A DNA stretch of 37,313 bases from Candidatus Cloacimonadota bacterium (lineage in GTDB: Bacteria; Cloacimonadota; Cloacimonadia; Cloacimonadales; JAMOQM01), in the NCBI GenBank assembly GCA_027064005.1, contig JAMOQM010000056.1, positions 1-37,313 on the forward strand. The letters are read 5' to 3'. The notes under the pieces were generated by a model. That model searched no databases. It was not told where the DNA came from and worked only from the letters and a program-made list of their open reading frames with translations. This document shows, piece by piece, positions 16,428-37,313 of this stretch. The position numbers and the translations under genes are program-made. Every line of letters starts with the position of its first letter. Positions within the stretch are counted from its first letter, which is position 1.

Positions 16428-17180
16428 TTATAATATCGGTTTAGCTAATTCATTTAGGTTGCAATAAGTAAATTCCTCATTTTTAATTGTTGATTGAACT
16501 TTCAAACCAAAGGTTTTCAGAAATTTTAGAAAATCCAAATCATCGGAAATAAATAAATCTGATGACAAAGCTGCAACAAATAAATCTCGATAATTTTTAC
16601 GTGAAACGTGGATTTCTTCAGACGAATTTTTCAGTAGCAGATTAACCGAAAATAAGACTTGTTTCCCTATATTTTTTTGAATATTAATCATATTTTTATT
16701 AAAAAAAGGAGAAATAATTATTTTCTTAAGATATACAATAACCGGAAATTTCCCCAAACTTTGATTTTCTAAAATATTTATTTTAATCTTTTCATTAGAA
16801 TCTTTTTTAATTTTTAGAAAGAATATTAAATTATCCAAAAGGTTGCCTTCAGATTTTTGAATCTCAAAATTACCGCCAAAAGTTGACATATAAAGATGGC
16901 TATTCATTTTTTTATGAATTTTTTGATGGATTTTTTTTGAAAAATTTATGATAATACTTTCATTATCTATTTTTCGCAAATCAAAATTTTGTTGAATAAA
17001 GTTACAATCCAATAAAGAAAAAACAGAAAATAAATCGTCGTTTAAATAAAAATTAATTTGATTAAAAGAACTTCTAATTGAAATCAAATTTTGCAATATC
17101 AGGATGTTCTCATAAAAAGAATCTCCGCCGATTATTACTAAATTATTTTTTGAATTAAATATTTGGGAAAAGTTTATCAT
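16428..17180 (-). CDS. Hypothetical protein, possibly a divergent GT9 (heptosyltransferase-like) fold
   Basis: ATG 17180 (MINFSQIFNSKNNLVIIGGDS) has an AAGGAAAA SD; the track start 17243 would overlap the kinase gene more deeply. The N-terminus and SSDLFISDDLDFLKFLKTFGLKV segment resemble GT9 patterns by eye. Confidence 0.55.
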   Translation of the reverse strand: MINFSQIFNSKNNLVIIGGDSFYENILILQNLISIRSSFNQINFYLNDDLFSVFSLLDCNFIQQNFDLRKIDNESIIINFSKKIHQKIHKKMNSHLYMSTFGGNFEIQKSEGNLLDNLIFFLKIKKDSNEKIKINILENQSLGKFPVIVYLKKIIISPFFNKNMINIQKNIGKQVLFSVNLLLKNSSEEIHVSRKNYRDLFVAALSSDLFISDDLDFLKFLKTFGLKVQSTIKNEEFTYCNLNELAKPIL

Positions 17181-20100
17181 TAATTTTTTCCTTATTTTCA
17201 TTTTCAATGTAAGCAGGAATAGCAACAAAGAACGTTGTTCCAATATTTTCTTCGCTATTTACCCAGATTTTTCCTGAATGCAAATCAACTATTCGTTTCA
17301 CAATTGACAATCCCAATCCCAATCCGGATGAGTCATATTCTACAACCCCGGAAGAATGAGAATAAATATCTCTCAATTCATAAAAACTCGTGAATATAGC
17401 TTGAATCTCATCTTCGGGAATACCAATTCCTTCATCTTTTATAGTAACTACAATTGATTTTTTACCATTAATTTCTTCAGTTTGGAAAGCTGATTTACGG
17501 CATCCTATGGTAATTTTCCCAAAATCTTTGGAATATCTAATTGAATTTAAAACAAGATTATATATCATTAAATGGAATGCTTCCCAATTAATCTCGGCTT
17601 TAGGCAAATCGTCCTCAATTTCCAAACTGATATCCATATGTCTTTTTGAAGCTAAAATATTTGCCTCATCAAGAATTAAGTTAAAAATTTCTTCCAAACT
17701 TTGAACGGTTAAAACCAATTTTTCAGCTATTAAATATTTATTATAAGTCAAAATATCCGAAGTAACGTTAGAGAGTTTATCAACGGAATTTTTTAATTTT
17801 TTGATAGTTAAAGCTTTTTCTTCATCAGAGTTGAAATTATCGCGGCGAATTCTGGAAACAACTCCTTGTAAAGTAACAAGAGGCGTATTTAATTCATGAG
17901 AAACTATATTAACAAATTCTTTTTTTACACTATCAATTCTGGACAGGTCCCGATTTTTCCTGATTATTTTTTCAAACTGAATAGTGTTTTCCAGAGCAAT
18001 TGAGATTTGAACTTTTAAAATATCCATAAAAGCAGGATATACGTGCATCTCCGAATTTTCAGCCTGATAATCATCCAAATATATAAATCCGTAAAATTCA
18101 TTATTTGTAAAAATCGGAAGACAATAAATTGAGTGTAATTCATAATCCTGAACACTAATTGAATTTTTCAGCAAATTATCAACGATAGCATTATTTGTAT
18201 AAATTGGCAAATTGTTATTTCTTGCTTCCGAAAGAACTGTTTTACTGACTTTGCTTTCATCCGAAATAAATTGATTATCTGAATTTATCCCAACATTAAA
18301 AACATAATTTCCTGCTTTATCATGTTTGATAAAAAAACCACGATTAGCATTAGTTATTCTAATTGAAGAAATTACAATTTCTAATTCCAGTTTATCTAAT
18401 TTTGAGATTGAGAAAAATTTTTGGGAAATCTTAATAATCTCATTCATCATTCTCGTTTGATTATTTAAGCGGTTGTATTCTGTAATTCTTGATAATATGG
18501 ATGTTAAATGCAGTCTTAATTTATTTATCTTTGAAATTTCTCGAGCGGAAAATTCCATTTCTCCATTATCAGTTAAAACAAAAACACCGATTTTAGATGA
18601 TTTTATACCAAAAGTTAAAAACACAACATTTTTGCCGCGAATTTTTTTCTTTATAATCGTACTTTTTGAAAATACTGACTCAATTGCTGAAAAATATTCT
18701 TTAGAATAAATATCTTCTTTTAAGGAATCGCTGACAAAAAAAGGTGTTTCATGGGTCGCTAAATTATTTTGTAAAATAATTGCATACGAATAGGGAGCAA
18801 CCATATTGTTGATGATTCTATCAACAAAAAACATTATTCTGTTAGTATCTCTAATTGTTAATAACTCATATAAATCTTCCTCCCAATTCAATTTATCAAT
18901 TGTTCTAAGTTTTGCTAACGGAGAAAGAAGATGAGTTGGAGCGTTGCCATCACAATGATATTTTTTCATAAAGGAATCAATAAATTCCTGAGGAAGACCT
19001 TTGGTTATATCAATAGCTTTTTGTTTTGTTAGTTTGTAAAAAATACGTGAATTTTTATCTGATTTTAATAGAATAAAAATTTCTGTTCGAATTATTAATG
19101 ATTTGAATTCGAGTAAAAAATATTTCTTTTTTTTAATTTCGTCCAAAGATTCAACGACATTTCTCATTAATAGTCTAAGAGGAATAGAATTGTCCATAAG
19201 TTGGATTTGAACATGAAGTAATTTTAAATAAGATTTCCAATAGCCAAAATGAAATTTATCAACCAATTCTTTAGATTTATCGAAATATTGATGAATCTCC
19301 TTTACATTTTTAAGATAAATAGCGGTTTCTGTAAGTTTAATGTAGAAAATTGCCTGTGCATAAACTGATTTTCTCTTTAATGCATAATCTAAACCCATCT
19401 TAAAATTAGTCATAGCTTTTTTATATTCTTTATCTTCATAAGCGAGAATACCTTTTATTTGATAAAAAAATTCTTCTTCTTGAATCTCAAAAAAGTTGAT
19501 ATCTAAATTATCTAAGATTCGTTTTAATTTTTTATACTGCCCTAAATTTATCAAAAAATAAAAATATGATTTTATTAAAGGGTTTATTTCCGTTATTTTG
19601 TCGCTGTTTATTTCGTTTTCAATAAATTTATAATAATCGTAAAAGTTGTTAATTTTAGCATAAATCAGAGCTTTATTGAATTTTATTGAACTATTAAATC
19701 CTTTATCTTCCGTAGAACCTATTATTTTTTTTGAAGCGTTCAAATAAGAAAGAGCATTTTCAAAATCACCTTTTTTGATGTATGCTTCGCCAAAATTAAG
19801 ATAGGATAATGCCAATCCTCGCTTTTGATCAATTCTTAAACAAAGCTTATGTGATTTTTCAAAGTAATGGATTGCGGTTTCAATATCTCCTTTCCTTAAA
19901 GCTATATCTCCCATATTATTGTAAATTGTAGGCAAAGAACGATAATAATGAATACTTTCCCAAATACTTTGGGCATGTTCATAATTTATCTTAGCTTGAT
20001 CAATCATTTTCAAATTAGAATAAATATACGCCAAATTATTGTAAAGAGAACCAAGACGATAAAATAAGCCGATATCGTTTTTTTCTATAATAGTTGGAAT

Positions 20101-22641
20101 AAAATCTTCGATGAGATTAACAGCATTTAGAGAATTACCCAAAGCATCTAAGATAACGGCTTTTCTATCATAATAGGAAATTTTTAAATTCTCACTCATA
20201 TTTTTCGGATCTAATTCATCAATAATCCTCTTTGCTTTTTCAGGAGAATTTGTTTGTAAATAAATCCATGCCATTTCAATAGTGGAGATAATTATTTCCT
20301 TACCTGTAACTGCTTGAGAATGAGCTTTTTCATAATGACTCAACGCTTTTGAATATTCAAGAATCCCTTGATAAATTGTTCCCCACAAATAATTTGTCTC
20401 GAAAATATCCGGTAAACCTTTTATTTTAATAAGAAATTCATAGGATCTTTTAACAAAGCCATTGATAAATATTTTTTCTCTAAAAACACGCAAATCTTTT
20501 TTTATTTCAATTAGCCCGATGTCAATTTTCCCGCTAAAATCTATTTCAATAATATCTCTAATTGTATAATAACTTTTTTCCTGATCAAATTTATGATCAT
20601 ACAAATTTAATAATTTCTTTTTATACCTTCGAACTGATATGAGATCGTGAGCTAAATATGAAATATCAACCAGACTATTACAAACCGCAATTTCATTTAG
20701 CGGTTTATTAATATAATATTCCAGTATTTTTTTAGCAATTTCTTTCTTTTCTTCATTAGATAATTCATTAAATAATTTTTCCTTAATCGTTCTATAAGTA
20801 AAACTAAACCGACTTTCATGTTCTATATAAATTTCATTATTAATAACATTTTTTAAAAAGAAAAATGTTTCTTTTTCATCTAAAGAAAGAGCAAATGATA
20901 TTAGGTCTTTTCCAATCGGGAAATCTATAACAGACAATTTCCTTATATTTTGATAATCTTGATTTTCAAGATGTCCTAATTGGGTAAAAATTATTTTAGA
21001 AATAGCTTTAGGTAAAACATAATCATCAAAATCGTAAGATAAGTCTAACCTCCCATTAGACCAAATTAATTTTCTATTTGTCAAATCATAGAGAACATCT
21101 TGAATAAATTTTGGATTTCCATTAGTGATTTTTAAAATATTTCTCACAAAAGCTTCCGGTGGCTCAGTATTGATTAATTGCTTTATATATTTTGAAACTT
21201 CAAAAAAAGTTAGAGGTTGAATATTAATTTTGGAAGGATGAACCATTTTCTTTATCGCCAAGGGATTATTGACGCTAACAATCAGTAAAATTCGGTTCTT
21301 AATAATATCTTCAGAAATAAAATTAATGAATCCTACGGTTTGTTCCGTTAAAAATTCACCAGCTCTAATTATAAAAACAATTGGTCTAATTTTCGACAAT
21401 TCAATAATAACCTTCTTAGCAATTTCATAATCCAGTTTTAATTCTTTTTCCTGAATAGTTATTTTTTTATATTTATCGGAAGAATGGAAAACAAATTCTT
21501 TGAATTTTTTACTCATAGCTTCCAAATCTTTAGAAATGTGTTCATCTTGATTTAAATATGATAAATATTCCTTAATCAAAGCAAAGAATGGATCTGAATT
21601 ATCAAGACTGCAAACATAATCAAAAATAAAGAAATTATCATTCAGAATATGGTATCTGAATAAAGTTAAGATATTATTCTTTCCGGCTCCATAACCGGAT
21701 ATTAAGGTAATAATTTTCCCGTTTCCATCAATGATCAAAGGAACATACGATAAAAGTTCGTGAGAATAATCTTCCCTAACCAAATAACTGCTAAACTGGA
21801 TACTATTGATAATATTTTTCTTATCTGAATAAGGATATCTTTTTAATGAGAATTTATTAATGTATTCAATTATGGATTCCGGATTTGCTAAACGATTTTC
21901 AGGTTTTACTTCTAAAAGCTTTAAAATTAGTTTTTCTAAATTTACCGGAATATCCGGATTTATATCGCGAGGAAAACGTGGAAAGAGATTTTTTAATTTT
22001 CCGCTTTTAAAATCAATAATTTCGTTAGTTGTAAAAGGTAAAATCCCGGTTGTCAGTTTATAAAGAATAACACCTAAAGAATAAAAATCGGACATTTTAT
22101 CATATTTTTTTTTAGAAATAATTTCAGGTGCAATATATGGCAATGTACCGGTTATTGTTTGTTGATTTTCAGTAAAATCCGTGCGTAAAAGCCCATAATC
22201 CAAGACTTTCAAATCAACCGTTTTCCCCTTCAAAATATAAAGTATATTCTCCGGTTTTAAATCAAGATGCAAAATATTCTGATTATGAAGAGAATTTAAG
22301 GCATAACAAATTTTTACTATAATGTCGTAAATCATATCGATTCGATACGGTTTGAAATAGAAATGATTTAATGTTTTACCCGAATAAAATTCACTAATCA
22401 CATAGATATGTTTTTTCCAAACACCAAAATCATAAACTCGCACTAAATTCGGATGAATAATTTTGGTAACATGATGCATATCTTCAGCTGTAAAATTTTC
22501 ATAAAACTTATCCGTATTAATATTCTCAAAATACTTCAAAACCAATATTTTATTTGTTCGCATATCTTGAACCTGATATACTGCGGACCACAAACCGGAA
22601 CCTAATCTGGCAATAACTTCATATCTGGAATCAATAATCAT
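17155..22641 (-). CDS. Multidomain Ser/Thr protein kinase - AAA/STAND-like ATPase - TPR - GAF - histidine kinase fusion
   Basis: STK: RLGSGLWSAVYQ, LVLKYF, ILHLDLKPENIL, LDYGLL, GTLPYIAPE. Central ATPase-like segment GYGAGKNNI; TPR-rich middle; GAF-like ISIRIT...YCLPIFTNNEFYGFIYLDD; HisKA FVNIVSHELNTPL; HATPase LMIYNLVLNSIRYS, DEGIGIPEDEI, GLGLGLSIVKRIV. No receiver domain. Confidence 0.92.
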   Translation of the reverse strand: MIIDSRYEVIARLGSGLWSAVYQVQDMRTNKILVLKYFENINTDKFYENFTAEDMHHVTKIIHPNLVRVYDFGVWKKHIYVISEFYSGKTLNHFYFKPYRIDMIYDIIVKICYALNSLHNQNILHLDLKPENILYILKGKTVDLKVLDYGLLRTDFTENQQTITGTLPYIAPEIISKKKYDKMSDFYSLGVILYKLTTGILPFTTNEIIDFKSGKLKNLFPRFPRDINPDIPVNLEKLILKLLEVKPENRLANPESIIEYINKFSLKRYPYSDKKNIINSIQFSSYLVREDYSHELLSYVPLIIDGNGKIITLISGYGAGKNNILTLFRYHILNDNFFIFDYVCSLDNSDPFFALIKEYLSYLNQDEHISKDLEAMSKKFKEFVFHSSDKYKKITIQEKELKLDYEIAKKVIIELSKIRPIVFIIRAGEFLTEQTVGFINFISEDIIKNRILLIVSVNNPLAIKKMVHPSKINIQPLTFFEVSKYIKQLINTEPPEAFVRNILKITNGNPKFIQDVLYDLTNRKLIWSNGRLDLSYDFDDYVLPKAISKIIFTQLGHLENQDYQNIRKLSVIDFPIGKDLISFALSLDEKETFFFLKNVINNEIYIEHESRFSFTYRTIKEKLFNELSNEEKKEIAKKILEYYINKPLNEIAVCNSLVDISYLAHDLISVRRYKKKLLNLYDHKFDQEKSYYTIRDIIEIDFSGKIDIGLIEIKKDLRVFREKIFINGFVKRSYEFLIKIKGLPDIFETNYLWGTIYQGILEYSKALSHYEKAHSQAVTGKEIIISTIEMAWIYLQTNSPEKAKRIIDELDPKNMSENLKISYYDRKAVILDALGNSLNAVNLIEDFIPTIIEKNDIGLFYRLGSLYNNLAYIYSNLKMIDQAKINYEHAQSIWESIHYYRSLPTIYNNMGDIALRKGDIETAIHYFEKSHKLCLRIDQKRGLALSYLNFGEAYIKKGDFENALSYLNASKKIIGSTEDKGFNSSIKFNKALIYAKINNFYDYYKFIENEINSDKITEINPLIKSYFYFLINLGQYKKLKRILDNLDINFFEIQEEEFFYQIKGILAYEDKEYKKAMTNFKMGLDYALKRKSVYAQAIFYIKLTETAIYLKNVKEIHQYFDKSKELVDKFHFGYWKSYLKLLHVQIQLMDNSIPLRLLMRNVVESLDEIKKKKYFLLEFKSLIIRTEIFILLKSDKNSRIFYKLTKQKAIDITKGLPQEFIDSFMKKYHCDGNAPTHLLSPLAKLRTIDKLNWEEDLYELLTIRDTNRIMFFVDRIINNMVAPYSYAIILQNNLATHETPFFVSDSLKEDIYSKEYFSAIESVFSKSTIIKKKIRGKNVVFLTFGIKSSKIGVFVLTDNGEMEFSAREISKINKLRLHLTSILSRITEYNRLNNQTRMMNEIIKISQKFFSISKLDKLELEIVISSIRITNANRGFFIKHDKAGNYVFNVGINSDNQFISDESKVSKTVLSEARNNNLPIYTNNAIVDNLLKNSISVQDYELHSIYCLPIFTNNEFYGFIYLDDYQAENSEMHVYPAFMDILKVQISIALENTIQFEKIIRKNRDLSRIDSVKKEFVNIVSHELNTPLVTLQGVVSRIRRDNFNSDEEKALTIKKLKNSVDKLSNVTSDILTYNKYLIAEKLVLTVQSLEEIFNLILDEANILASKRHMDISLEIEDDLPKAEINWEAFHLMIYNLVLNSIRYSKDFGKITIGCRKSAFQTEEINGKKSIVVTIKDEGIGIPEDEIQAIFTSFYELRDIYSHSSGVVEYDSSGLGLGLSIVKRIVDLHSGKIWVNSEENIGTTFFVAIPAYIENENKEKINDKLFPNI

Positions 22642-25949: not shown

Positions 25950-27404
25950 TTAGTTTTCGAAATCCGGATATTCAAGTTGAAACTTCTTCTTTTCTTCATC
26001 TTTATTGATATTATATTTTTTTATTTTCTTATATAAGGTTGTTCTTTCCAAATCAATCTCATTTGCTGTTTTAGTCATTTTCCAATTATTTTTATTTAGT
26101 CGATGAATCAAATATTTTTTTTCAAATAACTCAATAGCATCTTTCATTTTTAATTTATAATACTTATTTAAATCTTCAAAGATAGGGATTTTACGATAAT
26201 AATATTTATTTATTTTTCTTTTAAAATGTTTAAGGATAACATTATTATATATTCTTGGTTCACTTGCAGAAATTTTACTGCAAAAATTCTGCAATTCCCT
26301 AACATTTCCAGGCCAATTATAAGTGAGTAACATATCTTGAATTTTATCTAATTTCAAATAAACCATATTATTGTATTTTTCTTGATTTACTTTGATAAAA
26401 TATTCAATTAATAAACTAATATCATTTTCTCTTTTTATGACCGGCGGTAAATATATTGAATGTCGTTCAATTCTATAAAACAAATCTGCTCTAAATTTAT
26501 TTTGAGATACTAGCTCTTCTAAGTCCTCATTTGACGAAAATATTAATCTGACATTCACTTTTTTTACATCACCGCCAACAACTTGAATTTCTTTATTTTC
26601 AATTGTTCTTAAAAGTTTAGCCTGAGCTATAGGATTCAAACTGTTAACTTCATCTAAAAAAAGTATTCCCCCTCTGGCTCTTTCAAAAGCTCCACTATGA
26701 TAAGCACTTGCCCCGGTAAAAGCTCCCTTGGTATGACCGAATAATTCTGAGTCTATCAATGTTTCAGAGAAAGCCGAACAGTTAATAGCCAAAAATCTCT
26801 TATTAACTCTATCGGACATTTGATATAGACGGTTTGCAACAATTTCCTTTCCTGTCCCTGTTGCACCTGTAATAAGAATATTATCATTAGTTTGAGATAA
26901 TTCTTTTATTTGTTCCTTAACATTTTGAATCGCAGTTGATTCTCCAATAAGCGGAAATTCTTTTATTAATTGTTTTCTTAAAGAAACATTTTCAATTTCT
27001 AATTTTAAGGACGAATCTTCAAATTGTTTTAAATCTAAAGCATTTCTGACAGTTACAATAACGCTGTTTGTGTTGAAATTTGCCCCTTTTTCAATAAACG
27101 AATAAGCACCTAATTTTAGGGCTCGATTAAGATTTTTACTATTTCTTTCTCCGGAAATAATGATAATTTTAGCATTCAATGAATTTGTAGTTTGAAGAAT
27201 TTTTATAATTTCCAAACCATCATAAAGACTATTCCCTAATTTGATATCTACAAGCACTAATTCAGGATTAAATGTATCTACCTCATCAATAAATTTTTTA
27301 TATGATGTAGCTATTTTTACTTCATATTTCAATGGTTCCAGTACATTTTTAATTTCTTCCGCAATTTCAATTTCATCATCTAATATCAAAATTCTTTCTT
27401 TCAT
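25950..27404 (-). CDS. Sigma-54-dependent response regulator, NtrC family (REC-AAA+-Fis HTH)
   Basis: REC ILILDDEIEIAEEI ... LVLVDIKLG; ITGATGTGKEIVANRLY; GAFTGA; GGILFLDEVNSL; LTYNWPGNVRELQNF; Fis-type HTH NWKMTKTANEIDLERTTLYKKIKKY. Confidence 0.93.
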   Translation of the reverse strand: MKERILILDDEIEIAEEIKNVLEPLKYEVKIATSYKKFIDEVDTFNPELVLVDIKLGNSLYDGLEIIKILQTTNSLNAKIIIISGERNSKNLNRALKLGAYSFIEKGANFNTNSVIVTVRNALDLKQFEDSSLKLEIENVSLRKQLIKEFPLIGESTAIQNVKEQIKELSQTNDNILITGATGTGKEIVANRLYQMSDRVNKRFLAINCSAFSETLIDSELFGHTKGAFTGASAYHSGAFERARGGILFLDEVNSLNPIAQAKLLRTIENKEIQVVGGDVKKVNVRLIFSSNEDLEELVSQNKFRADLFYRIERHSIYLPPVIKRENDISLLIEYFIKVNQEKYNNMVYLKLDKIQDMLLTYNWPGNVRELQNFCSKISASEPRIYNNVILKHFKRKINKYYYRKIPIFEDLNKYYKLKMKDAIELFEKKYLIHRLNKNNWKMTKTANEIDLERTTLYKKIKKYNINKDEEKKKFQLEYPDFEN

Positions 27405-36659: not shown

Positions 36660-37313
36660 ATGAGTGAAACACGAGAAAGATATATTAACCTCTTTACCGA
36701 CTACGGTTTTAAGAGAGTTTTTGGAACTGAAATGAACAAGGACCTTCTAATTGATTTTTTAAATGAACTTTTAAAAGGTAAAGAGAAAAAAATTGTAAGT
36801 CTAAACTATTTGCCTTCAGAACAAATAAGCAGAACCGAAATCGACAGGAAAGCCATTTATGACCTCTATTGTGAAAACGAAGACGGCGAAAAATTTATCG
36901 TGGAATTACAAAAAGCAAAACAGAAGTTTTTTAAAGACAGATCTATCTATTACTCCACATTCCCAATTCAACATCAAGCAGAAAAAGGTGATTGGAATTA
37001 TGAGCTAAAAGCTGTTTATACTGTTGGCATTTTGGATTTTATTTTTAGTGAAGATGAAAAACATATTGATGATATAAAAGAAAAACATATAGAAAATGTT
37101 GAAGATGACATAGTTACAATTGTAAGATTAATTAATGAAAAAACGGGAAAAGTTTTTTATAATAAGTTAACCTATGTTTATTTAGAGATTCCTAAATTTA
37201 ATAAAAAATTAGAAGAAATAGAAACCCATTTTGAAAAGTGGCTTTATATTTTTAGATATCTTCATAGATTACAAAAAAGACCAATCGCTCTGCAAGAAAA
37301 AATATTTAACAAA
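36660..37313 (+). CDS. Rpn-family PD-(D/E)XK nuclease / putative transposase (partial, runs off right edge)
   Basis: Manual translation: MSETRERYINLFTDYGFKRVFGTEMNKDLLIDFLNELLKG...ISRTEIDRKAIYDLYCENEDGEKFIVELQKAKQKFFKDRSIYYSTFPIQHQAEKGDWNYELKAVYTVGILDF... 218 codons open to the window end. Confidence 0.85.
   Translation, partial: MSETRERYINLFTDYGFKRVFGTEMNKDLLIDFLNELLKGKEKKIVSLNYLPSEQISRTEIDRKAIYDLYCENEDGEKFIVELQKAKQKFFKDRSIYYSTFPIQHQAEKGDWNYELKAVYTVGILDFIFSEDEKHIDDIKEKHIENVEDDIVTIVRLINEKTGKVFYNKLTYVYLEIPKFNKKLEEIETHFEKWLYIFRYLHRLQKRPIALQEKIFNK

Follow-up and report, generated by a model that had tools for sequence, protein, structure and literature searches.

A phylum-wide, probable sensor kinase of the Cloacimonadota with a central ATPase segment degenerate at both predicted Mg2+-ligand positions

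The window analyzed here is a 37,313-nucleotide stretch of DNA from a Candidatus Cloacimonadota bacterium (contig JAMOQM010000056.1). Positions 17155–22641 are filled by a single unbroken open reading frame (ORF) of 1828 codons on the minus strand, with the ATG at 22641 and the stop at 17155; the plus strand across the same interval contains many stops. The 1828-aa protein that had originally been proposed at this location is thus encoded in one piece. Its domains, together with the gene that overlaps its 3' end, are as follows.

17155..22641, minus strand: 1828-aa STK-STAND-TPR-GAF-HK protein (P0001), delineated by the ORF, Pfam matches, and orthologues in the phylum
21883..22623, minus strand: Ser/Thr kinase (STK) domain, residues 7-253, with K36, HLDLKPEN (125-132), DYG (148-150), and APE; Pkinase, 2.2e-45 (Pfam), and column counts
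20842..21840, minus strand: STAND/AAA_16-like ATPase segment, residues 268-600; identified by profile-profile alignment with canonical paralogues and by AAA_16 in relatives
21673..21696, minus strand: Walker A GYGAGKNN, residues 316-323, with Asn322 at the Ser/Thr position; column counts and profile-profile alignment
21352..21378, minus strand: Walker B position VFIIRAGEF, residues 422-430, with Arg426 at the Asp position; column counts and profile-profile alignment
19312..20364, minus strand: TPR repeat region, residues ~760-1110; Pfam TPR_12/TPR_2/TPR_8
18067..18360, minus strand: GAF domain core, residues 1428-1525; GAF matched in 22/22 relatives, best 3.5e-10
17737..17925, minus strand: HisKA, residues 1573-1635, with phospho-acceptor His1582; Pfam 2e-11, H in 77/77
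17212..17580, minus strand: HATPase_c, residues 1688-1810, with the N, G1, and G2 boxes intact; Pfam 1e-22 and column counts
16428..17180, minus strand: downstream partner gene of 250 aa when read from MINFSQ, with a 26-bp overlap with the kinase 3' end; conserved next to the kinase in many relatives

The protein combines an N-terminal Hanks-type kinase, which carries the catalytic residues K36, D127, N132, and D148, with a C-terminal histidine kinase (HK) that retains the H, N, G1, and G2 boxes, as had been expected from the motifs; the HLDLKPEN motif has Leu at the HRD Arg position. A GAF domain lies between the two kinases, sub-threshold by itself in the window protein (E 0.02, Pfam) and recognizable in all the relatives searched. 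Pfam detected no C-terminal receiver domain. The kinase shows no hydropathy of transmembrane grade (the best 19-residue mean is 1.59), and we regard it as probably soluble. Full-length orthologues with 26-42% identity show the same motif state, which rules out a chance or frameshift artefact.

This layout is, as originally stated, already known. The cyanobacterial dual kinases of the cbSTKIII group (HstK/Alr2258, Alr0709, Alr0710, and others) likewise have an N-terminal STK, an intervening GAF, and a C-terminal HisKA and HATPase (PMC2176072), but filamentous cyanobacteria carry many shuffled paralogues of them, whereas the Cloacimonadota kinase is almost always present in a single copy and apparently inherited vertically. 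The fungal S_TKc-AAA_16-GAF-HK hybrids (Candida Chk1; Schizosaccharomyces pombe Mak2 and Mak3) have the identical domain order (PMC9069115) but are eukaryotic and contain an extra receiver domain. Within the phylum itself, HK-less paralogues of ~1150 aa (L074-L076) share the STK, STAND, TPR order, with roughly 23-28% identity in the region they have in common, and differ by the lack of an HK and by having canonical motifs at Walker A (GIGKS) and Walker B (ICIDDLQWADE).

An orthologue of the kinase was found in 111 of the 125 genomes of the phylum, including 69 of the 71 good ones, nearly always in a single copy, and in 37 of 40 relatives. The clades of the tree follow the taxonomic families, which indicates vertical descent; to judge from this distribution, the kinase is an old, maintained design of the phylum rather than an oddity of one gene. 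The HK-less paralogues (L073-L076) occur in a few genomes of the phylum. A pattern-based scan of genome contigs and plasmids, which finds close relatives only, yielded no full-length relative outside the phylum. A literature search on kinases of this phylum returned nothing relevant and no description of this protein; as far as these searches show, the phylum-wide core status and the ancient, persistent absence of Mg2+ ligands from the ATPase are new.

Residues 268-600 of the window protein, taken alone, gave no relevant Pfam match. AAA_16 was matched by 23 of 27 family members (best 1.1e-9), and the family profile aligned over 312 columns with that of the HK-less paralogues at 99.8% probability (E 7e-29, hhalign). 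These paralogues (L073-L076) contain clear AAA_16 domains, and in three of the four the motifs are fully canonical. In the profile-profile alignment, GYGAGKNN falls on the paralogue GESGIGKSK, with Asn322 opposite the Walker A Ser, and VFIIRAGEF on VICIDDLQW, with Arg426 opposite the first Asp of Walker B, so that the original placement of both motifs is borne out. The segment shows STAND/AAA_16 homology in its P-loop domain and the downstream STAND region (GNPxF motif, with GN at 508-509 conserved), and departs from this class in its motifs, where the Walker A of the window protein ends in GKN in place of GK[ST] and the hhhhD[DE] pattern of Walker B is interrupted by Arg. A canonical Walker B elsewhere, the alternative that the original prediction had allowed for, was not found: residues ~360-480 of the window protein contain no other hydrophobic run followed by [DE][DE], and a scan of 82 family sequences produced one match only, by chance. 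A PDB profile search with the ATPase segment recovered no relative (best E 0.75, P-loops of ABC transporters), and the single-sequence AlphaFold model of residues 260-613 has a pLDDT of 38, so that pocket geometry is not readable from it.

Column counts for the ATPase were taken over 82 family sequences. Gly318 and Gly320 are present in all of them and Lys321 in 80, and the GxGK triple is a conservation outlier (14 of 200,000 random column triples reach its level; domain mean 0.54), which is compatible with retained phosphate or nucleotide binding. The residue that follows GK is D in 33 sequences, N in 13, T in 10, S in 9, G in 6, K in 5, A in 3, R in 2, and E in 1, that is, Ser or Thr in 19/82 and Asp or Asn in 46/82. 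At the Walker B Asp position, we found R in 68 sequences, T and S in 5 each, Q in 2, H and I in 1 each, and D or E in none. These counts support the conclusion that both Mg2+-ligand positions of the ATPase have degenerated and that the loss is old and kept phylum-wide: the Walker B Asp was gone before the sampled families split, and the Walker A Ser/Thr is mostly lost, with the phosphate loop retained.

From established P-loop chemistry, loss of hydrolysis is predicted, and the segment most likely does no more than bind nucleotide, with no Mg2+-dependent hydrolysis; in the 19 sequences with Ser or Thr after GK, a weak site could remain. Some P-loop proteins with altered motifs still hydrolyze, and an active STAND switch could in principle operate through non-canonical residues, for example, Glu358 and Asp404, both invariant (82/82), the latter not common to the canonical paralogues. 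However, neither residue is positioned where the Walker B strand ends, Glu at 358 is found in three of the four paralogues as well, and no P-loop NTPase of this class is known to us to function with Arg in place of the Walker B Asp; we consider such a switch very unlikely.

Alternatively, the GxGK loop might act together with the Arg of the Walker B position to bind ADP or ATP directly, independently of Mg2+, with occupancy switching the HK. The conservation of GxGK well above the domain average, the prevalence of Arg, and the frequent Asp or Asn at the neighboring Walker A position, a possible charge swap, would all fit a sensor of this kind, but in f13, the other large family of the class, Thr or Ser takes the place of Arg, and two orthologues (L071 and L072, from genomes G053 and G054), placed on a long branch of the tree, have lost the P-loop Lys (GMGASE/GIGAGE) along with the STK HRD Asp and yet retain the whole protein with an intact HK. 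Given that these two lack even the P-loop Lys, nucleotide binding does not seem to be needed everywhere, and we view the Mg2+-independent sensor as rather unlikely. The hydrolysis-dead nucleotide sensor suggested originally thus fares unevenly: the degeneracy of both Mg2+-ligand positions and the retained GxGK agree with it, whereas the Lys-less orthologues speak against a sensor as the general rule. The more specific proposition that the STAND module of a phylum-wide core HK, with Arg replacing the Walker B Asp, senses nucleotide occupancy using neither Mg2+ nor hydrolysis, and so acts as an equilibrium sensor of energy charge, is doubtful, and we offer it as conjecture. A works-like comparison only is provided by the plant helper NB-LRR ADR1-L2, a STAND-type protein with one function independent of an intact P-loop, although its native P-loop is intact and needed for other functions, and its outputs are unrelated (PMC3636237).

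The two kinase domains differ in how strictly their catalytic residues are kept. In the 77 sequences counted for the HK, the residues H, E, P, N, DxGxG, and GLGLG are invariant. In the STK (78–79 sequences), Lys36 is present in 76/78 and the DFG Asp in 78/79, but the HRD Asp in 66/79, its loss in 13 sequences being scattered over ~10 separate branches of the tree. The STK of the window protein looks competent, and STK catalysis appears dispensable in several relatives. Because the HK residues are invariant while the STK catalytic Asp has repeatedly been lost, the conserved output is likely to be the HK, and the conserved role of the STK is probably regulatory; the STK and the ATPase most likely serve for input or as scaffolds. 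A true dual kinase, in which the STK phosphorylates the HK or the TPR part and the STAND segment is a passive linker, would accord with the window protein's intact STK catalytic residues (Lys, Asp, Asn, and DYG) and with the STK being among the most conserved parts (51/267 columns conserved at 90% or more, compared with 43/268 in the HK). Nevertheless, the protein has been retained in the ~10 lineages that lost the catalytic Asp, and the expected helix-C Glu position is variable, in a region of uncertain alignment; we therefore judge a dual kinase unlikely. With the STK Asp gone in these lineages and the HK never touched, two active kinases do not seem to be required, which weakens the original suggestion that the ATPase links two kinase activities.

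The genes flanking the kinase in the window are not conserved beside it in most relatives. The small downstream gene is very divergent and fast-evolving, with counterparts of 250-350 aa that often follow the kinase in relatives; the TTG-start ORF listed for it (to 17243) probably extends too far, the relatives pointing to the MINFSQ start. One of 23 relatives of the small protein matched Glyco_transf_9 (5e-6, Pfam), so that it may derive from glycosyltransferase family 9, perhaps in decayed form. At 14 loci, a TPR protein of ~950 aa with an apparent signal sequence lies directly after the kinase or the small gene (for example, L067 9909-12791, L078 4477-7410, and L080 14556-17468), and next to come is a ~490-aa protein that matches nothing in Pfam; one query did not find the TPR protein in the genome of the window. 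These neighbors give a hint of an envelope-related role. At the end of the window, an ORF at 36660-37313 (plus strand) runs off the edge and, by eye, resembles a PD-(D/E)XK nuclease/transposase-family protein.

We also looked for a cognate response regulator and found none among the NtrC-type and PorX-like candidates examined. An NtrC-type regulator (receiver, sigma-54 activation domain, HTH_8) is encoded at 25950-27404 on the minus strand, 3.3 kb upstream of the kinase; similar regulators within ~6 kb of the kinase were seen at just two further loci, where they sit on different sides, and we did not accept it as a partner also because G117, the smallest genome checked, keeps the kinase, while its three receiver proteins are a stand-alone receiver, one PorX-like protein, and one protein of REC-PAS-GGDEF architecture. 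The PorX-like candidate, a protein of ~530 aa (receiver and alkaline-phosphatase-like domain, recognized by eye), was present, by size match, in all seven genomes checked (loci include L126, L129, L130, L131, L135, and L136) and was not accepted either, another HK lying ~5 kb from it in two of the seven.

We favor, with somewhat better than even confidence, a sensor HK in which the N-terminal STK, STAND, TPR, and GAF parts form an input and assembly module. The output would be autophosphorylation of His1582 followed by transfer to a putative response regulator. The STAND segment, with GxGK kept and both Mg2+-coordinating residues lost, would most likely not hydrolyze ATP; its fold would persist as a rigid hub that might hold a nucleotide or phosphate in the absence of Mg2+. 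In Candida Chk1, with the same layout, deletion of S_TKc and AAA_16 impairs function even though the HK part remains (PMC9069115), which by analogy we count as support for an input module.

The kinase is a near-universal signaling protein of a largely uncultured phylum. A STAND module that seems catalytically gutted, yet is strongly maintained between two kinases, is a natural case in which to ask whether hydrolysis, or even nucleotide, is required by STAND switches, and the repeated catalytic loss in the STK, against the untouched HK, would indicate which kinase activity is the real output.
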